Part shown: one piece after another, positions 4,644 to 59,087 of the stretch
Position numbering within the stretch: the stretch's first letter is position 1
Layout of the letters: every line of letters starts with the position of its first letter
Assembly (NCBI GenBank): GCA_000233775.1
Contig: CP003096.1
Span: 248,001 to 312,000 of the forward strand
Length of the DNA: 64,000 bases
Reading direction: 5' to 3'
Source: Thermovirga lienii DSM 17291
Lineage (GTDB): Bacteria; Synergistota; Synergistia; Synergistales; Thermovirgaceae
Program-made: the position numbers and the translations under genes
Notes under the pieces: model-generated
Database searches by the model: none
What the model was told of the DNA's origin: nothing
The model's input: only the letters and a program-made list of their open reading frames with translations

Positions 4644-6039
4644 GGTCAAGTCCAAATTTGTGTGTAAATTCCCTCTGGCAGATAAGATCACCCCGTTTTA
4701 AGCTACATTTACCTGGGTATCGGCATTATTCACCTCCTTCTGCTGTTTTTCTGTGTTAGCCTTCCACTCCCAATACTCTGCCATATCAAAGTAGCGCTTT
4801 CCTGTGGTCCACACCTCGTCGATCTCTACAAGCACTGCTCCGATCAGTCTCACAGCCGACTCCTCGTTAGGGAAGATTCGGATCACCCGCTCCCGCCGGC
4901 GGATCTCCTGGTTGAGCCGCTCGACTCCATTGGTGGTGCGCAGCCGCTTCCGGTAGCGCCCTGGTAGTGCCATCACCGCCATTGCGTCCTCGAAACCAGC
5001 TTCAAGTCGCTCTACCGCCTTTGGCGCCCGGGCGCCAAAGGCCTCTATCGTTTCGTTCAGCAACCGCCTGGCCGTCTCCATATCCGGCGCGTCGAAGATC
5101 AACCGCAGTCGCCCGTGCAGGTCGCCCTGGAGGCTCTTAGGACAGGCGTCCAGGATGTTCCGGATAAAGTGGGTCTGGCACCGCTGCCATGTCGCTCCTT
5201 GGAAGTGGGTTTCTATCGCATTGATCAAGCCCTTGTGATCATCCGAAACAACCAAGTCCACTCCCTTGAGACCGCGCTCCTTGAGCCGGCCGAAGAACTC
5301 CGACCAAGCAGCCTCTGATTCGCTATCCCCGAGCATAAGCCCTAAAATCTCCCGGTATCCCTCCCGGTTGATCCCTGTAGCGAGAAGTACGCTTGAAAGC
5401 CGTACCCGGCCGCCTTTACGCACCCGGATGACAATGGCATCTACCAGGAGAAATGGGTATTCCTGGCTGCTCAAATCTCGCTCGTTCCACTCCTTTACGA
5501 TGTCGTCCAGTCTTTTGCACAGGCTGGATACGGTGGATTTGGAGAACTCCGTGCCGCATAGTTCATCAACAACCGCCCTTACCTTCCTGGTGGATACGCC
5601 GTTCACGACCATCTCGACCATGGCCAGCAAGAGCGCCTGCTCGCTCCGCTGGTACCGCTCGAAAAGCTCCGTGGAGAAGTGCCCGCTCCGGAGACGGGGA
5701 ACCATAAGCGTAAGTTCTCCTACGCGAGACTTGAGCAGCTTATCCCGATACCCGTTGCGGTACCCCTGCCGCTCTTCGGTACGTTCGTATGGCTTGGCCC
5801 TGAGTTGTTCGGTAGCCTGAGCATCGAGTATCTGATTCACGATGTTCTCCACCAACCGAGCCAATCCATCATCCCGAATAAATAATCCTTGCAAGAGATC
5901 ACAGTCTACGGTAACCTGGTAGTGAGCCATCTTTTCTCCCTCCTGATGATTAAGATTAAGCTACTTCTTATCTACCAGAGGGAGGGGTGGCTCTCCTGCT
6001 TCAAGCCATCAATTTTACACCATCATAATGGACACTACT
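4644..6039 (-). mobile_element. IS256-family insertion sequence, copy 1 (intact), inserted in cas1a
   Basis: The element is 1,396 bp and flanked by an 8-bp direct repeat TTGTTTTG (4636-4643 and 6040-6047). Its termini are imperfect inverted repeats: the left edge reads GGTCAAGTCCAAATTTG and the right edge, read inward, AGTAGTGTCCATTATGATGG, both followed by a TGTAAA core. It encodes one intact transposase on the minus strand. A near-identical copy lies at 34297-35691, and a related but diverged element at 57691-59087. The matching target duplicates mark a simple insertion with no later rearrangement. Confidence 0.93.
4698..5930 (-). CDS. IS256/mutator-type transposase (intact)
   Basis: A 410-residue DDE transposase. 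Visible family features are ATEQLRAKPYERTEERQGYRNG near the N-terminus, the first aspartate in FLLVDAIVIRVR, the second in LVVSDDHKGL, the QRCQTHFIRNIL block and the final glutamate in NGVERLNQEIRRRERV. ATG 5930 follows a good AGGAGGGAG ribosome site. Codon use looks more GC-rich than the surrounding cas genes, in keeping with recent arrival. The identical protein in copy 2 is frameshifted, so this copy is the likely source of activity for that element. Confidence 0.95.
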   Translation of the reverse strand: MAHYQVTVDCDLLQGLFIRDDGLARLVENIVNQILDAQATEQLRAKPYERTEERQGYRNGYRDKLLKSRVGELTLMVPRLRSGHFSTELFERYQRSEQALLLAMVEMVVNGVSTRKVRAVVDELCGTEFSKSTVSSLCKRLDDIVKEWNERDLSSQEYPFLLVDAIVIRVRKGGRVRLSSVLLATGINREGYREILGLMLGDSESEAAWSEFFGRLKERGLKGVDLVVSDDHKGLINAIETHFQGATWQRCQTHFIRNILDACPKSLQGDLHGRLRLIFDAPDMETARRLLNETIEAFGARAPKAVERLEAGFEDAMAVMALPGRYRKRLRTTNGVERLNQEIRRRERVIRIFPNEESAVRLIGAVLVEIDEVWTTGKRYFDMAEYWEWKANTEKQQKEVNNADTQVNVA

Positions 6040-8221: not shown

Positions 8222-8315
8222 TTGTGGTCTGCCTCCGCGGAGAGTGTTTCTACGCAAACATAGTTCTGTTTTTCACTTATTCTTAAGTCTTGCAAATACT
8301 GGTATTATAATAAGG
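8222..8315 (+). promoter_or_regulatory. Leader of CRISPR array 1
   Basis: About 94 bases between the second cas2 stop and the first repeat. The last 50 bases are AT-rich (CTTATTCTTAAG, GGTATTATAATAAGG), with TATAAT at 8305-8310 as a possible -10 element. Placement next to cas2, and a repeat variant near the far end, both suggest new spacers enter here. A cas1-cas2 recognition motif cannot be picked out by eye. Confidence 0.55.
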
Positions 8316-9821
8316 GATTCAATCGAACCGATACGGAATGGAAACCGTCCCGTCGCTCACATTGTGGGCACATTACCAGATTCAATCGAACCGATACGGA
8401 ATGGAAACTGTTTTGGCGCCCGCCACGTTTCGCTATTTGATTCAATCGAACCGATACGGAATGGAAACGTTACGCTCACGATAGGCAAGCTCCAGTATTT
8501 GATTCAATCGAACCGATACGGAATGGAAACATATTCTTTCGCCCTCAAACCTCAAAGGGCGGCGATTCAATCGAACCGATACGGAATGGAAACAAATAAA
8601 CTGAGCTTTGTTTAGAGTTTCTTTGATTCAATCGAACCGATACGGAATGGAAACTAGCGCCGGCATGAAGAAGGGCGCCCCTCCTAGATTCAATCGAACC
8701 GATACGGAATGGAAACTGCCTCCAACATCTCATATCACTCCTTTTTGTTATGATTCAATCGAACCGATACGGAATGGAAACTTTCTGTTAACTGTCTAGC
8801 CCTGACGAAGACCTCTTCGATTCAATCGAACCGATACGGAATGGAAACGTCGCTATCGGATATATTCTTAATTTATCATACGGATTCAATCGAACCGATA
8901 CGGAATGGAAACTGTGTCAAGCTCTAATGGTAAAGTCTAAATATTCGATTCAATCGAACCGATACGGAATGGAAACCAGTAAACGTCCCAGCCGTCCTCA
9001 CGTAGCCACTTGAGATTCAATCGAACCGATACGGAATGGAAACAACATTTGGTGCAAGGCGTCATCGATGTCGTTAAGGATTCAATCGAACCGATACGGA
9101 ATGGAAACACCTTTCCAAATATTATATTTTATTGTCAAGGATTCAATCGAACCGATACGGAATGGAAACTTCAGCGCTGCAAACGGAAGGATATAGGAGA
9201 CAGATTCAATCGAACCGATACGGAATGGAAACCAATATCCAACCTTTTCATCGCTTATGCGGACAGGATTCAATCGAACCGATACGGAATGGAAACGCAT
9301 CCCATCCTTTCCTTTCTTATTGTCAAGGTACGATGATTCAATCGAACCGATACGGAATGGAAACGTGCACTCCTCCGTACCATTTAGATAGTACGGAGCA
9401 TAGATTCAATCGAACCGATACGGAATGGAAACCTGAAAATATTTTTTCAGCGCTGAATATGGGAGAATGGATTCAATCGAACCGATACGGAATGGAAACC
9501 CTGATTTGTTCCTGATCCAACTGTGGTAATTGGATTCAATCGAACCGATACGGAATGGAAACTACTACACCCCATCCTTTCTTATATTTTCTTGTCGATT
9601 CAATCGAACCGATACGGAATGGAAACTCGCGCCGATCGGGAGGCGTTGTGAAAAAGAGGAGCCCGATTCAATCGAACCGATACGGAATGGAAATTGTTCT
9701 CTCTGTATTGATATCTCCCTTTGGCGGATTCAATCGAACCGATACGGAATGGAAACCCTTGGACAGCCACCACCTTGCCCACATAGGCAAAGATTCAATC
9801 GAACCGATACGGAATGGAAAC
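8316..9821 (+). CRISPR. CRISPR array 1: 24 repeats of 30 nt, 23 spacers
   Basis: The repeat begins GATTCAATCGAACC and ends GATACGGAATGGAAAC. Repeats start at 8316, 8379, 8439, 8501, 8564, 8625, 8687, 8752, 8819, 8883, 8947, 9014, 9079, 9140, 9203, 9267, 9335, 9403, 9470, 9533, 9597, 9665, 9727 and 9792. Spacers run from about 30 to 38 nt. The repeat at 9665 ends GGAAAT instead of GGAAAC; the others look identical. The likely crRNA 5' handle is AUGGAAAC. The array belongs by position to the type III-A locus. Short open frames across it are only repeat translations. Confidence 0.98.
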
Positions 9822-9829
9822 ACTCCTAT

Positions 9830-10110
9830 GCTTTGACTTATCTATGATTTTCGGTGTTTTTTCTAATAGATACCCAAAATGTTTTTCCTTTCCAGTCTCC
9901 AAGTCCCTTAAGGCTCTTACATGTCTTTTCTCCGTCTTGTGTGACTACTAAAGCTACACCAATTTCATGAAATTGCCCCGCTAGTGTCCAATTGATGTTT
10001 TGTCAATGCTCGAATTTCGGCCTCAGTTTTTGAGGTCTCTCCAATGTTGCGAGATGTTGGAATTCTTGGATTGCCAAACACAAATTTGTGCAAAACTTGA
10101 CATCTTGGAT
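9830..10110 (-). pseudogene. Possible decayed coding remnant between array 1 and a promoter
   Basis: Bases 9822-10139 hold no intact gene. On the minus strand two adjoining frames look protein-like: one ends ALTKHQLDTSGAIS near 9965, and the next frame continues EIGVALVVTQDGEKTCKSL and stops near 9841. A single frameshift near 9975 would join them. I do not recognise the product. It may be chance coding-like sequence. Confidence 0.25.
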
Positions 10111-10249: not shown

Positions 10250-10408
10250 ATGGAGAAGGTATTAAGGAACGTCATAGGAGAAGAATGGGTATTGGAGCTC
10301 AAATTGAAGAAAGTGCAAAAGCCCTCCAAGGCTAAACATGCCGCCGTTTCAAACGAAAGAAACCACAATCACATCGAACACCTTGGGAGGGATGGGGAAT
10401 GGTGGTGA
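10250..10408 (+). CDS. Small uncharacterised protein coupled to the citrate-synthase-family gene
   Basis: A 52-codon frame from ATG 10250, with AGGGAGG at 10236-10242, ending TGA 10406-10408. It overlaps the start of the next gene (ATG 10399) by ten bases. The product is basic and histidine-rich (KVQKPSKAKH, NERNHNHIEH) and ends GEWW. I know no family for it. The ribosome site and overlap favour a real coupled peptide, either a leader that sets translation of the lyase or a small partner. Confidence 0.45.
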   Translation: MEKVLRNVIGEEWVLELKLKKVQKPSKAKHAAVSNERNHNHIEHLGRDGEWW

Positions 10409-11115
10409 GGTCTTCAGAGCCTACTTATGTTGCTCCCAATAGGCTTGTATTGGATGGCGAGGACATAACAAGTTGGATAGAGAGGGCTTCTCCTGCGGAA
10501 CTTTGGTTCAGGATGATTCAGGGTAGGGCTCCTCAGCCTGTTGAAGTTAGAGTGTTCAATGCCATACTCTGTGCCATGGCGGACCACGGCAGCACTCCGC
10601 CGAGCACTCAGGCCGCAAGGTTGGTGGCCTCTACCGGTTCGGGGGTTCACTGTGCCTTGGCAGCGGGGATGATGGCCTTCGGAGAGCATCACGCAGGCGC
10701 CATAGAAAAGGCCATGGGTTTTTTTGAGGAAATAAACCAATCAGGCAGGAAACCCTCCGAAGTGGTCATGGAGATTCTCGCAGAACGAAGGAAGATCCCC
10801 GGATTCGGTCATCGCTATCACACTAAGGATCCTAGGGTGGAACCTTTAGTAAGGTTGGGGAAGAATCTTCCCAATACCACTTTTTTGGAGATGTTCCTGG
10901 AGATGGAACGCGCTCTGCGCAACTTGAAAGGTATAAACGGAAATATAGACGGGGTATCTGGTGCCCTTCTTTTGGATATGGGATTTGTAAAGGAGGCAGG
11001 AAGGGCAGTTTTCTTCGCAGGGCGCCTTCCAGGAATGGTCAGTTGGATTATAAAGGAAATATATTCGGGGTACTTCAAGCCCTACAAACTGTGTCTAGAT
11101 GCAAAGGGAGCGTAG
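10399..11115 (+). CDS. Citrate-synthase-superfamily protein (citryl-CoA lyase-like)
   Basis: A 238-residue protein matching the catalytic half of citrate synthase: ADHGSTPPSTQAAR with the first histidine (~residues 55-67), GEHHAGAIEKAM, then IPGFGHRYHTKDPR with the second histinine-bearing loop (~residues 133-147). It lacks the N-terminal large-domain helices of citrate synthase and is close in size to citryl-CoA lyase-type members, which split citryl-CoA into acetyl-CoA and oxaloacetate or act on related acyl-CoA esters. The substrate cannot be told from sequence. ATG 10399 overlaps the small upstream gene. The operator pair at 10140-10186 probably controls it. Confidence 0.75.
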   Translation: MVVRSSEPTYVAPNRLVLDGEDITSWIERASPAELWFRMIQGRAPQPVEVRVFNAILCAMADHGSTPPSTQAARLVASTGSGVHCALAAGMMAFGEHHAGAIEKAMGFFEEINQSGRKPSEVVMEILAERRKIPGFGHRYHTKDPRVEPLVRLGKNLPNTTFLEMFLEMERALRNLKGINGNIDGVSGALLLDMGFVKEAGRAVFFAGRLPGMVSWIIKEIYSGYFKPYKLCLDAKGA

Positions 11116-11118
11116 ATC

Positions 11119-11147
11119 TTGCGTTCGGATCTCGCATCTATTATAAT
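11119..11147 (+). promoter_or_regulatory. Promoter of the riboswitch transcript
   Basis: TTGCGT (11119-11124) and a perfect TATAAT (11142-11147) are separated by 17 bases. They lie just after the citryl-lyase-like stop and about 70 bases before the riboswitch. Confidence 0.6.
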
Positions 11148-11216
11148 ATACTTGCCTATTGTACTCACTTGTCCACTAATGTATGACCCACGCGCTGGAA
11201 GATAGTCAGGCAACCA

Positions 11217-11333
11217 ACACGCTGAATTCCCTGAAGGGAAACGGGGGACCCAATCTTCAGGGGTGAATCCCACGTAAGTGGGTAGGGCTAGTCTCTTTCG
11301 GCCCGAACCCGTCAGCTAACCTCGTAAGCGTGG
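11217..11333 (+). ncRNA. Cyclic di-AMP riboswitch (ydaO/yuaA type)
   Basis: The conserved core elements appear in order: GAAACGGGGGACCCA, GGGGTGAATCC, GTAGGGCT, CCCGAACCCGTCAGCTAACC and TCGTAAGCG. The outer helix can form between CACGCT (11218-11223) and AGCGTG (11327-11332). This family binds c-di-AMP and usually turns expression off. The next gene is the GNAT acetyltransferase at 11460. A hairpin at 11401-11419 could act as the expression platform. Confidence 0.9.
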
Positions 11334-11400
11334 AAAGAGGGTTTATTCCCTCACTGTGATGTGGTCCTAGGGCAACTATTTGTATTCGATCCAGCCGATA

Positions 11401-11435
11401 TGTGGTGTTTCACACCACAGGTATCTTTGTTCTTT
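11401..11435 (+). terminator. Hairpin between riboswitch and GNAT gene, possible expression platform
   Basis: TGTGGTGT (11401-11408) pairs perfectly with ACACCACA (11412-11419) across a three-base loop and is followed by a T-rich run (GGTATCTTTGTTCTTT). It lies about 70 bases after the riboswitch core and 25 bases before the ribosome site of the next gene. An intrinsic terminator controlled by the aptamer is plausible. The T run is interrupted, so efficiency is unclear. Confidence 0.5.
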
Positions 11436-11459
11436 GAAACAACGAGGAGGGATAAACAG

Positions 11460-12113
11460 ATGTTGGAAAATGTTGTCTTAACGTCTAAAAAAACAAGAAA
11501 AAAGCCTCTTTTAGACGACAGGAAAATACCGCAAAAGGAACAAATAACTGTACATAAAGCTGAAGTCGAAGATGTGGAGCAGATTTATAGGGTTGCTTGC
11601 TCTGTGGGTACGGCCCTGAAGGATCCTTATAAGGGCTTTCTGATCGATGACTACCTTTCTGACCCAGATTACTACAAGGAAATGTTCGCCAAGGCAGCTC
11701 AAGAGCTAGATCATTTTTACGTTGCAAAGAAAAATGACGCCGTTGTGGGCTTTCTCATGGCCTACCCAAAAGAGAAGCTATTGGAAGTCGACCCTCTTTG
11801 GTTGGAGGAAATAGTCTGGGATCCCGACTTTGACCATGAATCTAAAACTAAAAACTTTGCGTTGGTGGGCAAGACTGCGATACACGCAAACTTGACGGGG
11901 AAGGGAATAGGATCTTCTTTGTACGCAAGGTTGATAAGGGACCTAAAGGCCCAAGGAATAGAAGATTTGTTTGGAGAGACAGTCATATCTCCAACACCCA
12001 ACTTCGCATCTTTGGCATTCAGGATCAAGCAAAAGTACAGCCTTGCGGGGATTCGGTACGTGAATTACAAGGGAAGAAGGGTAACGGATTTGATCTACCA
12101 CAGGCACATATGA
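11460..12113 (+). CDS. GNAT-family N-acetyltransferase
   Basis: A 217-residue protein. The core includes the strand and turn around FYVAKKNDAVVGFLMAY, an acetyl-CoA-binding-like segment (AIHANLTGKGIGSSLYARLI, the Q/R-x-x-G-x-G/A region, ~residues 140-160), and PTPNFASLAFRIKQKY near the C-terminus. The substrate is unknown. I chose ATG 11460 because GAGGAGGG lies about eight bases upstream; an open frame extends back to 11361 but crosses the hairpin. The gene sits behind a c-di-AMP riboswitch, so its expression should respond to that messenger. Its last codons form half of a terminator hairpin. Confidence 0.8.
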   Translation: MLENVVLTSKKTRKKPLLDDRKIPQKEQITVHKAEVEDVEQIYRVACSVGTALKDPYKGFLIDDYLSDPDYYKEMFAKAAQELDHFYVAKKNDAVVGFLMAYPKEKLLEVDPLWLEEIVWDPDFDHESKTKNFALVGKTAIHANLTGKGIGSSLYARLIRDLKAQGIEDLFGETVISPTPNFASLAFRIKQKYSLAGIRYVNYKGRRVTDLIYHRHI

Positions 12114-12135
12114 TGCGCCTGTGGTAGATCCTTTT
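12092..12135. terminator. Bidirectional terminator overlapping the GNAT stop
   Basis: A perfect 14-bp stem, GATCTACCACAGGC (12092-12105) with GCCTGTGGTAGATC (12117-12130), encloses an 11-base loop that contains the GNAT TGA stop, and is followed by CTTTT. The left arm is coding sequence. It lies between convergent genes and can end both transcripts. Confidence 0.8.
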
Positions 12136-13511: not shown

Positions 13512-14432
13512 ATGAGCGAAGTAAATCCAGAAAAGCGTTTCCCCAATTGGCTTATAGTTCTTATGTTTGCAGGCCTCTATACTACCTGGAGCACTACTTA
13601 TTTGGCCATATATTACATGGTCAAAACCATTCCTCCATATCTTTCCTCGGGCCTAAGGTTTTTGGTGGCGGGGGCAATTTTGTATGGGTTTGCCCGCATA
13701 AAAAACAAGAATGAAAGGATCTCCTTAAAACATTGGAAGAGTGCATTGATTACAGGAGGGCTAGTAATATGGCTGGGTAACGGCAGCGTAGTCTGGGGTG
13801 AAAAATACATATCCTCCAGCCTTGCGGCCCTTTTGATAGCCACCGTCCCTCTTTGGATAGTTCTGCTCAACTGGTTGCTTTTTGGCGGAGGCAAGCCTGG
13901 AGTCATAGAAATGGTAGGCGTGGTTCTTGGCTTTTTGGGAGTGGCTCTTTTGATAGTCTTTACAAGGCACATTGGAGGAGAAGGGTACAACCTCAAGGGG
14001 ATCGTAATAGTGCTGGCTGCATCCATTTCTTGGGCGACGGGCTCCTTGTATTCTAGGTACAGCCAAACACCCTCTTCTCCTCTTCTTTCGGTAGCAGCCC
14101 AAATGCTTGCGGGTGGAGCCCTCATGTTTTTGGCTTCTTTCTTCGTGGGCGAATGGGCTACCTTTGAACTTTCAAAGGTAAGCATGGTCTCGGTTCTTTC
14201 ATGGGCTTACCTGGTGGTTTTCGGGTCTTTAGTTGGATTCGTGTGTTACATGACGTTGATGAAAGTCTGCAGGCCCTCCAAGGTGGCCACATACGCATAC
14301 GTGACACCTGTGGGAGCAGTTTTCCTAGGGTGGCTCATCGCAGGGGACACCATCACCTATCACACGTTGATTGCAGGAGGAATAATTATATTGGCCGTTC
14401 TTATGATAATATCCTTTGCACCGAAGGAGTAA
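13512..14432 (+). CDS. DMT-superfamily (EamA) transporter
   Basis: A 306-residue integral membrane protein with about ten hydrophobic segments in two EamA repeats (roughly residues 15-145 and 160-300). Early residues include TTWSTTYLAIYYMVKTIPP, and the first repeat ends around GVALLIVF. EamA proteins export amino acids or other small metabolites; the substrate is unknown. ATG 13512 lies 20 bases after the DsrE-like stop. The last 32 bases overlap the 3' end of the convergent GGDEF gene. Confidence 0.85.
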   Translation: MSEVNPEKRFPNWLIVLMFAGLYTTWSTTYLAIYYMVKTIPPYLSSGLRFLVAGAILYGFARIKNKNERISLKHWKSALITGGLVIWLGNGSVVWGEKYISSSLAALLIATVPLWIVLLNWLLFGGGKPGVIEMVGVVLGFLGVALLIVFTRHIGGEGYNLKGIVIVLAASISWATGSLYSRYSQTPSSPLLSVAAQMLAGGALMFLASFFVGEWATFELSKVSMVSVLSWAYLVVFGSLVGFVCYMTLMKVCRPSKVATYAYVTPVGAVFLGWLIAGDTITYHTLIAGGIIILAVLMIISFAPKE

Positions 14433-15792
14433 GGGCTTCTTTTTTCAACAGCTTGGCTTTTCTTTTTGCGTCGTAGAGTCTTTCGTCAGCAGTATTTATA
14501 AGTTTGTGGCCATCTGATGAATCTTCTGGGAAAGAGGCAACCCCGAAATCCACATCTAGCGGTATTTCAAGCTCTTTCTGGAAAGCTTCTTTTACTTCGC
14601 GCTTCAGCCTGAAGGAGAGTTTCAAAGCCTCTGTTTTGTTTGTGTCAGGAAGAATGGCTATGAATTCGTCCCCTCCATATCGGGCGAGGATGTCGGAGCG
14701 CCTTATGCGTTGTTCCATGAATTTGGAAAATTCTATCAATATGTTGTCTCCTTCCAGGTGACCAAGGGTGTCGTTTATGTGTTTGAATCCTGCAAGGTCC
14801 ATTATGACCAATGAGAATGTAGTATTGTATCGTTTGCAGCGGGAAAGCTCCTCCTGTAGCCTATCGGAGAAGAATTTTCTGTTCCATAAGCCTGTCAGCG
14901 GATCTTTGAGGGCTTCAAGTTTTGTTTGTTCCAGCAGATTTTGGTGTGCCCACAAAACCCCAAGGTGCATTGCCAGGATCTCTATTAGCTCTATCTCTTC
15001 ATCTTTGAAGCCATTTATTTTTGGACTTCCAATACTTAAAACGCCCAAGACCCCTTCATCGAAGATTATAGGTACGTCAAGCTCTGACCTAGATTCGGTG
15101 CTTACCTGTATGTTTTCTGGGTACTTAGTGACATCTGGGAAGTAAAGAGTTCTTTTTTTCCTTACGGCTTTTCCAACAAGGCCTTTGCCTGATTCTACCT
15201 TAGCAATGACTTCGCGGGAGGCATCTCCTGACTTGTAGACTAGGCGAGTTTTTCCCGTTTTTTCATCTATCACTTCCCAGATGTCAATCCAGGGAAGTGA
15301 TGTATTCCGTGACATTTCCTGGACCACTTTCCTGCAGATATCATGGATGCCCTTTTCTTTCGCTGCGTTGCAGACTATGTCGAAAATTATTTGGCCCATC
15401 CTGCTTTTTCTCTCTATAGCCTCTTTTTGCCATAGTTTGGTGCGTGATGCGGCAAAATAGCTGCACAAAAGGTTTATGACTTCTTGGTCTGACTTTGGAA
15501 GAGAACCTTTAAACTTCAAGAACCCCCAATTCGTACCCTCGCAGCTTATAGGGAAACATGTCCTGTTAGTTTCGGTCCCGGGGCAATATGCGTTGGTGTC
15601 TTGGCTAGGGAATTCCTCTAGTTCTAGATAAAAATTCTTGTGTCCTAATTTGCGCAGAGCGTCAGCAAATACATCGGCAAGTTCATCCATGGTTTCGCTT
15701 TTCAAAAACTTCAAGATAGAGTGGGTCGCGTATTTCAGGCTTTCATTAGTTCTCTTAAGCCTTTTGCGGTAAGAAATCCATCGCGTTGCCAT
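14401..15792 (-). CDS. GAF-GGDEF diguanylate cyclase
   Basis: About 463 residues. A GAF-like sensor region lies in the middle (GKGLVGKAVRKK, DVPIIFDEGVLGVLSIGS). A C-terminal GGDEF domain has DPLTGLWNRKFF at its start and the intact signature RYGGDEFIAILPD. RRSD five residues before the signature matches the RxxD inhibitory site, so the enzyme should make c-di-GMP and be feedback-inhibited. I chose ATG 15792, preceded by AAAGGAAA; the open frame reaches ATG 15945 but has no visible ribosome site there. There is no transmembrane segment with the shorter start. An HD-GYP gene at 36816 may degrade the same messenger. Confidence 0.85.
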   Translation of the reverse strand: MATRWISYRKRLKRTNESLKYATHSILKFLKSETMDELADVFADALRKLGHKNFYLELEEFPSQDTNAYCPGTETNRTCFPISCEGTNWGFLKFKGSLPKSDQEVINLLCSYFAASRTKLWQKEAIERKSRMGQIIFDIVCNAAKEKGIHDICRKVVQEMSRNTSLPWIDIWEVIDEKTGKTRLVYKSGDASREVIAKVESGKGLVGKAVRKKRTLYFPDVTKYPENIQVSTESRSELDVPIIFDEGVLGVLSIGSPKINGFKDEEIELIEILAMHLGVLWAHQNLLEQTKLEALKDPLTGLWNRKFFSDRLQEELSRCKRYNTTFSLVIMDLAGFKHINDTLGHLEGDNILIEFSKFMEQRIRRSDILARYGGDEFIAILPDTNKTEALKLSFRLKREVKEAFQKELEIPLDVDFGVASFPEDSSDGHKLINTADERLYDAKRKAKLLKKEALTPSVQRILS

Positions 15793-16137
15793 CCGAAGGG
15801 GTTTCCTTTTGAGGGTGATTTTTTGCCCCAAGGTTTCGATGCCTCCCAGGTTTTTCTTTGGTTCAACAAGCTGCTGAGAAAAACACCTATAACATAAAAA
15901 ATATACCATTTGTGGCAGCTTATAGCAATGACTTTTACCATACAAAGTGAATTAATGTTTTCAAATGAGGTGCGTATTCAGCGGTAAAAGTGTGCAGAGA
16001 GCCTGATATTTATTGACTTTTATAGATATTTTTCACTGGGTGCTTACGGCAAGACAAATGCTGGCAATAGGGTTTGTTGACACATCTACTGCCAGCACTG
16101 GGAAAGCATAAAGTAAAGTTGGATAACGAAATGTTGT

Positions 16138-30842: not shown

Positions 30843-31011
30843 TTGTGTCGACCTCCAATAGTGCTGAAAAACCTGGGGGTAGACAAAGGGGTTGAGCCTT
30901 GGATAAACGTTGTAGCTACTGGTTATGGCTCAAAAATAGGACCTTGAAAATAGAATAAATCTATGGAATATTATTGTAGAGAGAAACTAGAATACGGCTA
31001 GAAGAAAATGG
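30843..31011 (+). promoter_or_regulatory. Leader of CRISPR array 2
   Basis: A 169-base gap between cas2 and the first repeat. The last ~75 bases are AT-rich (AAAATAGAATAAATC, GGAATATTATTGTAGAG). TATTAT at 30969-30974 could be a -10 box. Degenerate repeats at the opposite end of the array support this side as the insertion end. Confidence 0.6.
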
Positions 31012-34000
31012 GTTTTAGACCTTCCTATAAGGGATGGAAACACTATGGCTTTGGCTCTTTTATTATAGCCATTATCTGGTTTTAGACCTTCCTATAAGGG
31101 ATGGAAACACTACATTGGCAATTTCTTTTGCTGACTTATTTTTAGTTTTAGACCTTCCTATAAGGGATGGAAACGGTTTTTCAACAACTGCAGCTTGGGG
31201 CTCTAAACCAAGTTTTAGACCTTCCTATAAGGGATGGAAACGGGGCTTTAGGCGCATCCTCCTGGCCCGTGTCACCGTGTTTTAGACCTTCCTATAAGGG
31301 ATGGAAACTCGAACTGTTCCTCAAGCCCCCTTGTGCTGAGCCACGTTTTAGACCTTCCTATAAGGGATGGAAACGAGCGGTGACGGTGCCAGCTAGCGGG
31401 ACCACAGCCAGTTTTAGACCTTCCTATAAGGGATGGAAACTATGTCAGCGCCATATGTCGAGGATATGCATTTTGGTTTTAGACCTTCCTATAAGGGATG
31501 GAAACACGACATAGATGCACTGCTTCAGGAGCTCTTCGATGGTTTTAGACCTTCCTATAAGGGATGGAAACATGAAAATGACATAACCAGATACAAATGA
31601 AGGCGGGTTTTAGACCTTCCTATAAGGGATGGAAACTAGACTTCATGCGCGACGACTTCAGTCGTCTGCCCCGTTTTAGACCTTCCTATAAGGGATGGAA
31701 ACTAGCAATAAGAGAAAGGAGTGAAAAACATGACTCTAGTTTTAGACCTTCCTATAAGGGATGGAAACATGCCGTGCGGGCTGAGAGGTGTCGCCGTTCT
31801 TTCTAGTTTTAGACCTTCCTATAAGGGATGGAAACTTTGATGTGCGCTACCTGTTTTCCTCCCCAAAACAAGTTTTAGACCTTCCTATAAGGGATGGAAA
31901 CTGATTTTGACGAGGCCATGCTTAACGTTCTTATCTTGTTTTAGACCTTCCTATAAGGGATGGAAACCTCCAGCGTCACGACGTGGTAACCGTTGGCGCA
32001 TGGTTTTAGACCTTCCTATAAGGGATGGAAACATTACTCCTATGGTCTAGAACAGAAGCTCGTACACAGTTTTAGACCTTCCTATAAGGGATGGAAACTC
32101 GACAACAACGCCTGGTACTGGAAGGGGCAGCTGGTTTTAGACCTTCCTATAAGGGATGGAAACAAGGGGCCAAAAGTACCAGTGCTAACAACGCGAAAGC
32201 GTTTTAGACCTTCCTATAAGGGATGGAAACTAAATATGCCCGCCGCACCCTCACCTGCTATGGCCACGTTTTAGACCTTCCTATAAGGGATGGAAACACG
32301 CATATTTTGCGGCAATAATACTGTCTGCGGATAGTTTTAGACCTTCCTATAAGGGATGGAAACCGCAATATGACCCACAAACCGACACAGTGTCTTTTAT
32401 GTTTTAGACCTTCCTATAAGGGATGGAAACTTGCAACAGAATCAGAGTTTTCGCTGTGGTCACATCGTTTTAGACCTTCCTATAAGGGATGGAAACTTCG
32501 TAGCGGATATCAAACTGGCTGAACCCCATAAGCCGTTTTAGACCTTCCTATAAGGGATGGAAACGTGGCGTTCGTATGGTTGGCCAAGAGCGGCAAGCTG
32601 AGTTTTAGACCTTCCTATAAGGGATGGAAACAGTTCCCGCCTCATTTCCAGTAGCTCCCGCACCGCCTGTTTTAGACCTTCCTATAAGGGATGGAAACCT
32701 GGCTAGACCTATAATCCTTGAGCATGACGGAAAGTTTTAGACCTTCCTATAAGGGATGGAAACCTGCTCCATCTCCCCATCGAGACGGGTTCTTCCATGT
32801 TTTAGACCTTCCTATAAGGGATGGAAACTACATCCTCCTAAGTTTTTTGGTCGGCACGTACTTAGTTTTAGACCTTCCTATAAGGGATGGAAACACAGTA
32901 TGGTAACACCGCAAATCATAAGCATCATAGTTTTAGACCTTCCTATAAGGGATGGAAACCGGAAAAACAACCTTAGGTAGAATAGTCGCAAAATAGTTTT
33001 AGACCTTCCTATAAGAGATGGAAATAGTGTTTTTATGACCCGACCGATGCCGCGCAAGCAGTTTTAGACCTTCCTATAAGGGATGGAAACTCCAAACACA
33101 CCTTCCAATCTAAATGTTCAATCTGAACCGTTTTAGACCTTCCTATAAGGGATGGAAACCCGCTCTATGGCGTCCGGCGGCCAACCGTGTTCATTGTTTT
33201 AGACCTTCCTATAAGGGATGGAAACACCAGTTTCGCGTTTTTCTGCGCAATAGCCACCTCGTTTTAGACCTTCCTATAAGGGATGGAAACGTGCCCATGC
33301 TGCAGAGTGTGCCGGGGCTACTTCAGGTTTTAGACCTTCCTATAAGGGATGGAAACGTGCTTGAAGGAATTACGCCTGTTTACGCTTTTTCAAGTTTTAG
33401 ACCTTCCTATAAGGGATGGAAACTTGTTATCTTTGTTACCTCTCTGCGCGTCCTCTTGGTTTTAGACCTTCCTATAAGGGATGGAAACTTTGTTTCCTTC
33501 GCGCAAAGGCCGTGGGCCTATAACGGTTTTAGACCTTCCTATAAGGGATGGAAACACAAAAAGGAAAACCCCCTTTATGATCGGGCTAGACCGTTTTAGA
33601 CCTTCCTATAAGGGATGGAAACTGTCGGCGCTTGGGATATCGGATTGCGGCAGCCTTGCGTTTTAGACCTTCCTATAAGGGATGGAAACACCACCTCGCC
33701 CTCCCATGTGATTTTTTCCGGCATAGGTTTTAGACCTTCCTATAAGGGATGGAAACTCCAATTCAATTGCCGTGGCGAGTTCAGCCGACAATGTTTTAGA
33801 CCTTCCTATAAGGGATGGAAACCTGAAATAGTCTTTGACTGTGCCATTAACCACGGTGTTTTAGACCTTCCTATAAGGGATGGAAACTGTCGAGGATATG
33901 CATTTTCCGGGTAGCCCTCTGACGTTTTAGACCTTCCTATAAGGATTGGAAACCAAGCTGTCACAGAAGCAGTAGGTCAGTGCCTTATTGTTTTAGACCT

Positions 34001-34296: not shown

Positions 34297-35691
34297 AGTA
34301 GTGTCCATTATGATGGTGTAAAATTGATGGCTTGAAGCAGGAGAGCCACCCCTCCCTCTGGTAGATAAGAAGTAGCTTAATCTTAATCATCAGGAGGGAG
34401 AAAAGATGGCTCACTACCAGGTTACCGTAGACTGTGATCTCTTGCAAGGATTATTTATTCGGGATGATGGATTGGCTCGGTTGGTGGAGAACATCGTGAA
34501 TCAGATACTCGATGCTCAGGCTACCGAACAACTCAGGGCCAAGCCATACGAACGTACCGAAGAGCGGCAGGGGTACCGCAACGGGTATCGGGATAAGCTG
34601 CTCAAGTCTCGCGTAGGAGAACTTACGCTTATGGTTCCCCGTCTCCGGAGCGGGCACTTCTCCACGGAGCTTTTCGAGCGGTACCAGCGGAGCGAGCAGG
34701 CGCTCTTGCTGGCCATGGTCGAGATGGTCGTGAACGGCGTATCCACCAGGAAGGTAAGGGCGGTTGTTGATGAACTATGCGGCACGGAGTTCTCCAAATC
34801 CACCGTATCCAGCCTGTGCAAAAGCTGGACGACATCGTAAAGGAGTGGAACGAGCGAGATTTGAGCAGCCAGGAATACCCATTCCTCCTGGTAGATGCCA
34901 TTGTCATCCGGGTGCGTAAAGGCGGCCGGGTACGGCTTTCAAGCGTACTTCTCGCTACAGGGATCAACCGGGAGGGATACCGGGAGATTTTAGGGCTTAT
35001 GCTCGGGGATAGCGAATCAGAGGCTGCTTGGTCGGAGTTCTTCGGCCGGCTCAAGGAGCGCGGTCTCAAGGGAGTGGACTTGGTTGTTTCGGATGATCAC
35101 AAGGGCTTGATCAATGCGATAGAAACCCACTTCCAAGGAGCGACATGGCAGCGGTGCCAGACCCACTTTATCCGGAACATCCTGGACGCCTGTCCTAAGA
35201 GCCTCCAGGGCGACCTGCACGGGCGACTGCGGTTGATCTTCGACGCGCCGGATATGGAGACGGCCAGGCGGTTGCTGAACGAAACGATAGAGGCCTTTGG
35301 CGCCCGGGCGCCAAAGGCGGTAGAGCGACTTGAAGCTGGTTTCGAGGACGCAATGGCGGTGATGGCACTACCAGGGCGCTACCGGAAGCGGCTGCGCACC
35401 ACCAATGGAGTCGAGCGGCTCAACCAGGAGATCCGCCGGCGGGAGCGGGTGATCCGAATCTTCCCTAACGAGGAGTCGGCTGTGAGACTGATCGGAGCAG
35501 TGCTTGTAGAGATCGACGAGGTGTGGACCACAGGAAAGCGCTACTTTGATATGGCAGAGTATTGGGAGTGGAAGGCTAACACAGAAAAACAGCAGAAGGA
35601 GGTGAATAATGCCGATACCCAGGTAAATGTAGCTTAAAACGGGGTGATCTTATCTGCCAGAGGGAATTTACACACAAATTTGGACTTGACC
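34297..35691 (+). mobile_element. IS256-family insertion sequence, copy 2 (frameshifted transposase)
   Basis: A 1,395-bp element with the same ends as copy 1 (begins AGTAGTGTCC, ends GGACTTGACC), in the opposite orientation. It is flanked by a 9-bp direct repeat GTCGTACAG (34288-34296 and 35692-35700). It is one base shorter than copy 1 because an A is missing from the AAAAGACTGG stretch, near 34824. It interrupts the 3' end of the HD-GYP gene. Confidence 0.93.
34406..35637 (+). pseudogene. IS256-type transposase with a one-base deletion
   Basis: The first frame runs 34406-34840 and ends early. The remaining two thirds are open in another frame until TAA 35635-35637. Joined, they give the same protein as the intact copy at 4698-5930. 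The deletion lies in SLCKRLDDIV: copy 2 reads AAAAGCTGG where copy 1 (minus strand) reads AAAAGACTGG. Programmed frameshifting is unlikely because the intact copy needs none. Confidence 0.9.
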
Positions 35692-57690: not shown

Positions 57691-59087
57691 AGTTACGTCC
57701 ATATAATTGTGTAAAATTAAGAGCCAAGGCAAGGTCTCTGGTTTAAAATGGTAAGCGGAAAAACAAACCCAAACCGGAGGTGACCTTGCAATGGCTCAGT
57801 ACAATATTACCATCGACTCAGAATTACTGCATCAGTTATTTTTGTCGGACAGTAAGGATTCTGGAGTATCTAAGTTATTGGAGTCGGTATTGAATCAAGT
57901 TCTTCAAGCCCAGGCAACGGAACAATTGAGAGCAGAGGCTTACGAGCGGACAGAGGAAAGACGAGGGTATCGCAACGGAACATACCCGCACAGGCTTACG
58001 ACGAGAGTAGGGAGCCTTGTTTTGAGGGTGCCCAGGCTTCGTAATGGCAAGTTTTCTACGGAGCTTTTCAGCAGATATCAGAGGAGCGAACAGGCCTTTA
58101 TTTTGGCTTTGATGGAGATGGTAGTAAATGGGGTATCAACCCGTAAGGTATCTGAGATAACCGAGGAGTTATGTGGAGTAAGGATATCCAAGTCATTGGT
58201 GTCGGAATTATGCAGGAGGCTGGATCCAGTTATAGAAGCGTGGAGAGATAGGTCTTTGAAGGATAAGGAGTATCCCTTTCTGATTGTAGATGCATTGGTT
58301 ATAAGGGTGAGGGAAGAAAACAGGGTCTTACATAGGAGCATGCTTATATGTGTGGGTGTGAACAGAGAAGGTATACGAGAAGTTTTGGGGTTTGTGGTAG
58401 GAGATAGCGAATCAGAGGAGAGCTGGGGGGATTTTTTCGGTTGGTTGAAAGATAGAGGTTTAAGAGGTGTGGATTTAGTGGTATCTGACGACCACAAGGG
58501 ATTAGTAAAGGCTTTGAGGAGAAATTTTCAGGGGTCAAGCTGGCAGAGGTGTCAAACTCATTTTATACGGAACATACTATCTGCTTCACCTAAGGGTCTT
58601 CAGGGGGAGCTCAAGACTCGGATACAGGCTATTTTGCATGCTCCGGATATGGGGACAGCCAGGATGTTGTTGATGAGGGTTTTAGAGGAATACGAAGAAA
58701 AAGCTCCTAAGGCGATGAGGATTTTGGAAGAGGGATTTGACGATGCTGTGGCGATATTGTCTTTGCCGGAGAAGTATCGTAAGCGTCTGAGGACGACCAA
58801 CAGTGTGGAGAGATTGAATGAGGAGATAAGGCGTAGGGAGAGGGTTATACGGATATTTCCAAGCAGGGAATCGGCAGTAAGGTTGCTTGGCGCAGTTCTT
58901 CTTGAGATAGACAACAAGTGGGCTGGTGGAAGGAAGTACCTTGATATGGATGAGTACTATGAATATCTTTCACAACAGCAATCTAGATCAAGCCCTAAAA
59001 TCTATTGCCTTTAACAAAAAATAAGAAAAATGCATAAGACCATTACCAGAGACCAAAACAAATTTACACAAAATATAGGACTTGACC
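57691..59087 (+). mobile_element. Third IS256-family element (diverged type)
   Basis: A 1,397-bp element flanked by an 8-bp direct repeat CCAACTCC (57683-57690 and 59088-59095). It begins AGTTACGTCC and ends GGACTTGACC, matching the ends of copies 1 and 2, with TGTGTAAA cores inside both ends. It encodes one intact transposase. It sits between the rhodanese gene and metH, close to the metH start. Confidence 0.92.
57791..59014 (+). CDS. IS256/mutator-type transposase (second type)
   Basis: A 407-residue DDE transposase related to those at 4698 and 34406 but clearly diverged. ERTEERRGYRNGTYPHRL, FLIVDALVIRVR with the first aspartate, LVVSDDHKGL with the second, QRCQTHFIRNIL and NSVERLNEEIRRRERV with the glutamate are all present. 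It is intact. Base composition is lower in G+C than in copies 1 and 2. Confidence 0.95.
   Translation: MAQYNITIDSELLHQLFLSDSKDSGVSKLLESVLNQVLQAQATEQLRAEAYERTEERRGYRNGTYPHRLTTRVGSLVLRVPRLRNGKFSTELFSRYQRSEQAFILALMEMVVNGVSTRKVSEITEELCGVRISKSLVSELCRRLDPVIEAWRDRSLKDKEYPFLIVDALVIRVREENRVLHRSMLICVGVNREGIREVLGFVVGDSESEESWGDFFGWLKDRGLRGVDLVVSDDHKGLVKALRRNFQGSSWQRCQTHFIRNILSASPKGLQGELKTRIQAILHAPDMGTARMLLMRVLEEYEEKAPKAMRILEEGFDDAVAILSLPEKYRKRLRTTNSVERLNEEIRRRERVIRIFPSRESAVRLLGAVLLEIDNKWAGGRKYLDMDEYYEYLSQQQSRSSPKIYCL

Follow-up and report, generated by a model that had tools for sequence, protein, structure and literature searches.

The usual targets of c-di-AMP, a bacterial signal for salt and potassium, lie in the movement of potassium or solutes and in wall remodelling. 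Potassium, osmolyte-transport and wall genes are also what PMC9337991 mentions as usual targets of c-di-AMP riboswitches. In the 64-kb stretch of the Thermovirga lienii genome analysed here (hereafter the window), a riboswitch of this class precedes a gene encoding a putative acetyltransferase of the GNAT family, which raises the questions of whether this enzyme is controlled by the switch, in which direction, and what it may acetylate. The presence of the riboswitch, proposed in a first-pass annotation of this DNA, is borne out by Rfam: the RF00379 match on the plus strand (Table 1) exceeds the gathering score of 38 bits, with E = 5e-25 over the 64-kb window, and its alignment covers model positions 1-134 of 134, that is the full length, with the core motifs present. 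RF00379 is the one RNA family that Rfam found in the window, with no second riboswitch beside it, and the aptamer is the single RF00379 match in a search of the whole T. lienii genome. The tail pseudoknot is complete (7/7 pairs) in all 19 leaders compared (the window and 18 others). A DAC domain (c-di-AMP cyclase domain) is encoded in the genome of T. lienii itself and in 20 of the 21 genomes searched, and c-di-AMP can therefore be expected in the host. Judged by model score and tail pairing, this element is a genuine c-di-AMP riboswitch, which would bind its ligand in T. lienii as well. It shares with the RF00379 class the full-length match, the core motifs and the tail pairing, and differs by its target, a stand-alone GNAT instead of a potassium, osmolyte-transport or wall gene. 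Two aptamers from other genomes carry long insertions in peripheral stems while the core is kept (L024 1079-1385 and L028 2245-2432; 307 and 188 nt versus about 135).

The GNAT open reading frame matches PF00583 with 37.6 bits (cut-off 20.7), and it begins 113 nt downstream of the aptamer; a GTG codon at 11361 could serve as an alternative start of a longer frame, but would fall within the leader. As the first-pass annotation had it, this is the only gene behind the switch, the next one, dapB, being convergent. The annotation had also given the unit a promoter of its own, and such an element can be read from the sequence (Table 1), in a layout that recurs in the congener (G180: TTGCCT-17-TATAAT at the equivalent place upstream of the switch); it was not among the matches of a promoter consensus scan.

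Table 1. Features of the riboswitch-GNAT unit, with positions in the window.
Feature	Position	Strand	Basis or remark
Promoter-like element TTGCGT-17 nt-TATAAT	11119..11147	+	Sequence reading; TTGCGT 11119-11124, TATAAT 11142-11147
c-di-AMP (ydaO/yuaA) riboswitch aptamer	11210..11346	+	RF00379 match, 108.9 bits
Tail pseudoknot, 5' strand CTCTTTC	11293..11299	+	7/7 pairs with tail
Tail pseudoknot, 3' strand GAAAGAG	11333..11339	+	7/7 pairs with loop strand
Tail hairpin GAGGG(UUUAUU)CCCUC	11337..11352	+	Fold -8.8 kcal/mol, z -1.6
Anti-Shine-Dalgarno element GUUUAUUCCCUC	11341..11352	+	Duplex calculation and inverted repeat I3
Terminator-like hairpin, imperfect U-tract	11397..11425	+	-12.7 kcal/mol, z -2.0
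Shine-Dalgarno region GAGGAGGGATAAAC	11444..11457	+	Sequence; pairs with 11341-11352
GNAT-family acetyltransferase, 217 aa	11460..12113	+	PF00583
Possible terminator (inverted repeat across the GNAT 3' end)	12092..12130	+	18-nt arms 12092-12109 / 12113-12130, 94% complementary

Whether the enzyme is a true target of the switch can be addressed by their distribution. Across the phylum of T. lienii, RF00379 and a relative of the GNAT are each found in 4 of 185 genomes, and these are the identical four, belonging to three genera; in all of them (4/4) the riboswitch lies just upstream of the GNAT gene and in the same orientation. A scan of genome contigs gave five GNAT relatives; the two from Soehngenia and Gudongella have no such riboswitch. 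When a profile made from six GNAT members was run on 391 genomes of the class of Soehngenia (G185), 21 had a strong match (E below 1e-50), and ten of 31 class genomes, with weak matches only (E 1e-5 to 1e-3), were excluded as generic GNATs. Of 20 class GNAT loci scanned with Rfam, 16 had RF00379 immediately before the gene, and the addition of G269 from its match positions brings the riboswitch-GNAT pair to 17 of the 21 class GNAT genomes (G269 and a second copy in G185 were outside the 20-locus scan, the second copy being judged separately). The four others (G185, G255, G326 and G455) are not among the 112 class genomes, out of 391, in which a search with stricter filters matched RF00379. In a wider sample of 398 genomes from the phylum of Soehngenia, one further relative was detected (E below 1e-20; G848), with no riboswitch found at its locus. 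This relative (L062, G848:C66:4995-5609) has two in-frame TAG codons, and is either a decayed gene or a case of recoding. In a FastTree phylogeny, the four proteins from the phylum of the window cluster together (support 0.91), and this cluster stands beside a riboswitch-bearing group of the class with weak support (0.34).

The claim that the switch controls the GNAT is thus strongly supported by linkage. In the other direction, 95 of the 112 riboswitch-bearing class genomes in this sample have no strong GNAT match, which is to be expected if the riboswitch class has several kinds of target. The unit is also found in changing surroundings. T. lienii and its congener share a citryl-CoA-lyase-like gene upstream and the convergent dapB downstream, and the neighbours differ at the other two loci of the phylum. 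Besides dapB, the contexts include a ClpB-like gene with pyrBI in one lineage, other opposite-strand genes in another, an MFS carrier 110 nt downstream, and an ArsR-ABC group (neighbours were named by Pfam for ten of them, and by reading of the sequence for most others). In the loci inspected, what follows the GNAT is usually a gene of the opposite strand or one some hundreds of bases off. A glutamate-synthase-domain gene 402-436 nt downstream of the GNAT (Soehngenia and Gudongella), a glutamine synthetase upstream (G181) and an FlK-like neighbour are each limited to one lineage or genome, and no metabolic or pathway partner gene recurs across lineages among the neighbours examined. The FlK-like gene, a thioesterase, precedes the unit in the same orientation at six class loci, L046, L048, L050, L051, L056 and L061 (PF22636 in the one tested).

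With neighbours this variable, the switch and the GNAT behave as a stand-alone unit, and to judge from the genomes compared this unit has been conserved in evolution across two phyla. The co-occurrence of both in several unrelated bacteria makes it probable that the enzyme serves as a dedicated output of c-di-AMP. An adjacency by mere chance, with the switch serving another gene and the GNAT being unregulated, could appeal to the 4 of 21 class GNAT genomes that lack any riboswitch match, but it is contradicted by the linkage counts, since switch and GNAT are adjacent in every genome that holds both (4/4 in the phylum of T. lienii, 17/17 in the class) in differing gene contexts; we therefore reject it as scarcely credible. 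The GNAT gene adds a new target to a known riboswitch class. We found no paper in the open-access literature that joins the RF00379 class to a GNAT target, and an earlier notice is possible. A GNAT family so tightly tied to the signal offers a handle on what else c-di-AMP controls.

How the switch would act on this gene can be approached from the leader, which we compared across 19 of the 20 linked loci (L024, which has the riboswitch, was omitted as its variant GFLIGDY was missed by the motif search). We consider it probable that the c-di-AMP riboswitch has one dedicated GNAT family as its target and exerts translational OFF control. At high c-di-AMP, the 3' tail of the aptamer (GAAAGAG) would be locked into the pseudoknot with CUCUUUC, which would disrupt the GAGGG/CCCUC hairpin and release the anti-Shine-Dalgarno strand; the freed strand would pair with the ribosome-binding site, and the acetyltransferase would not be produced. 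When stress (osmotic or potassium) brings c-di-AMP down, the tail hairpin would return, leaving the ribosome site open and the enzyme produced. The architecture is consistent with such an exchange, the tail hairpin overlapping the GAAAGAG strand, competing with the pseudoknot and containing the anti-Shine-Dalgarno strand, and the pairing between 11341-11352 and 11447-11457 was recovered independently by a repeat search (inverted repeat I3). The best duplex between the two elements reaches -15.7 kcal/mol in the window (18/300 shuffles as good) and -18.4 kcal/mol in the congener (6/300), where both elements are kept and the stretch between them is divergent; it is equalled by at most 8/300 shuffles in 10 of the 19 leaders. 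With the tail locked, the Shine-Dalgarno region of the window drops in computed accessibility from 0.209 to 0.095, a fall matched by 4/60 shuffles (for the RNA alone at 37 C, the host being a thermophile). The corresponding fall is matched by at most 2/60 shuffles in 8 of the 19 leaders; three (L010, L026 and L033) have no change or a slight opposite shift, and the others have small drops. Collectively, these computations no more than suggest an OFF switch, the signal being weak in the window itself and strong in roughly half of its relatives.

The leader could also be read as a mainly transcriptional platform, in which the hairpin between aptamer and gene is an intrinsic terminator formed on c-di-AMP binding. 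By a strict scan, 11 of the 15 leaders from the class do have a canonical terminator ahead of the gene, and the hairpin of the window, stable as it is (Table 1), is equalled by 5/200 shuffles. Its tail (UUUGUUCUUUG) is, however, an imperfect U-tract, with which the hairpin passes the strict scan solely as a poor case, and a consensus scan of the region returned 2 terminator sites against a shuffle mean of 1.8, which is not above chance. The terminator-like hairpin announced by the first-pass annotation thus exists, but is only weakly terminator-like. The strict scan moreover found no terminator in L010, L011, L023, L025, L027 and L030, among which L030 seems, by eye, to have one with G-U pairs. 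A mainly transcriptional platform in the window therefore seems unlikely to us. Many leaders carry an anti-Shine-Dalgarno element, a terminator or both, in an arrangement by which the ligand should shut the gene off, and the platform of the window is best read as translational OFF, with termination likely in many relatives.

An AlphaFold2 model of the enzyme itself (pLDDT 81.7, with residues 1-25 below 50) has a plain GNAT fold, and a fold comparison of residues 26-217 gave Z scores up to 19.0 (146 aligned residues, rmsd 1.8), with Ard1, RimI, EctA, PA4794 and others as top matches within a few Z units of one another. Among curated models and folds, those nearest to it are generic ones (RimI, ArsN1, Ard1): no curated NCBIfam family was reached, all scores being far below cut-off, and a search of solved structures by sequence had weak generic GNATs as its sole matches. 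An alignment of 25 members has 24 invariant positions, including G59-F60-L61, Y65, W114, F124, K138, G149, G151, E173, N181, F187 and K190, and D63 and D64 are almost invariant (the GNAT of G364, truncated by a contig end, was excluded from the count of invariant residues). The acetyl-CoA loop motif of GNATs is Q/R-x-x-G-x-G/A; the corresponding region here reads T146-G-K-G149-I-G151, with both numbered glycines invariant in the 25 rows and T in the first position. The conserved acids and aromatics of the substrate-side segments would fit a cationic amine.

As the product of this enzyme, the first-pass annotation had proposed an acetylated compatible solute or modified cell-wall material, and either may be right. 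PMC9337991 describes a c-di-AMP riboswitch that terminates transcription at high c-di-AMP and controls an osmolyte-precursor gene, which is switched off when high c-di-AMP signals that the cell is 'not in osmotic distress'. By analogy with this switch, osmotic or potassium stress would be the condition that calls for the GNAT. We tentatively propose that it acetylates a small amine or osmolyte as part of the osmotic response, a possibility that we put forward with caution; an acetylated osmolyte is a plausible product. As described in PMC9337991, the tandem Na+/c-di-AMP riboswitch that precedes ablA in Dehalobacter likewise adjoins an enzyme gene, one tied to osmolyte synthesis in a pathway whose last step is an acetylation, but here the switch is single and an aminomutase is not needed. 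An AblB-like GNAT making N-epsilon-acetyl-beta-lysine, the best-known product of the kind, would extend this link between c-di-AMP riboswitches and ablA, and the genome of T. lienii does encode two AblA-like genes, while EctA, another osmolyte GNAT, is among the tied fold matches. Yet in the congener (G180, 99% complete), where both the GNAT and its switch are present, there is no match to TIGR03820 (lysine 2,3-aminomutase), which disfavours beta-lysine as the substrate. No AblB-type match appeared among the NCBIfam matches, from a library that may not include an AblB model, and no aminomutase was recognised among the listed neighbours (by sequence reading, ten of them having been run against Pfam), so that we regard an AblB-like role as very improbable. 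With EctA, the enzyme has the GNAT fold in common (Z 17.1, 148 aligned, rmsd 2.5) at an identity of 13%, but it differs from both EctA and AblB in that it matches no curated model and that no ectoine or beta-lysine genes were recognised beside it, ectB and ectC included, among the listed neighbours.

A protein substrate was weighed as well: the GNAT might be a RimI/Ard1-like N-terminal or lysine acetyltransferase with potassium or wall proteins as its targets, in keeping with weak RimI profile matches in 6/6 members and with the high rank of Ard1 and RimI in the fold comparison. Identity to these two is nonetheless at most about 20%, their fold rows are tied with those of small-molecule GNATs, and the curated scores fall short as described above; we hold protein acetylation unlikely. 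Returning to a small amine as the substrate, we may further speculate, with more doubt, that the stand-alone riboswitch-GNAT unit of the two phyla represents a conserved and so far unrecognised c-di-AMP output, by which a cellular amine would be acetylated when c-di-AMP drops, with a novel osmolyte as the product or a reduced charge on a potassium-like pool of cations as the effect.

The window also carries two CRISPR arrays (8310-9850 and 30991-33960) with different repeats, in about 24 and 45 copies at a spacing of 60-68 nt; Cas1 is found near both, Cas6 upstream of the first and Cas3 upstream of the second. A defence role of the GNAT was considered and rejected, as none of the members (6/6) had a PADLOC match. 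Mutator-family transposases are encoded at 4698-5930, 34406-35637 and 57791-59014, the first and the last being confirmed by Pfam and the middle copy being broken into two frames. A mobile or viral origin of the GNAT was rejected too, tblastn having found no relative in viral contigs or plasmids. Just upstream of the unit, 10399-11115 encodes a 238-aa protein whose match to citrate synthase / citryl-CoA lyase is confined to the C-terminal portion of these enzymes, and the congener has an equally short citryl-CoA-lyase-like form at the equivalent position. A GAF-GGDEF diguanylate cyclase, that is a gene of c-di-GMP signalling, is encoded at 14401-15945, with about 2.3 kb between it and the riboswitch-GNAT unit.
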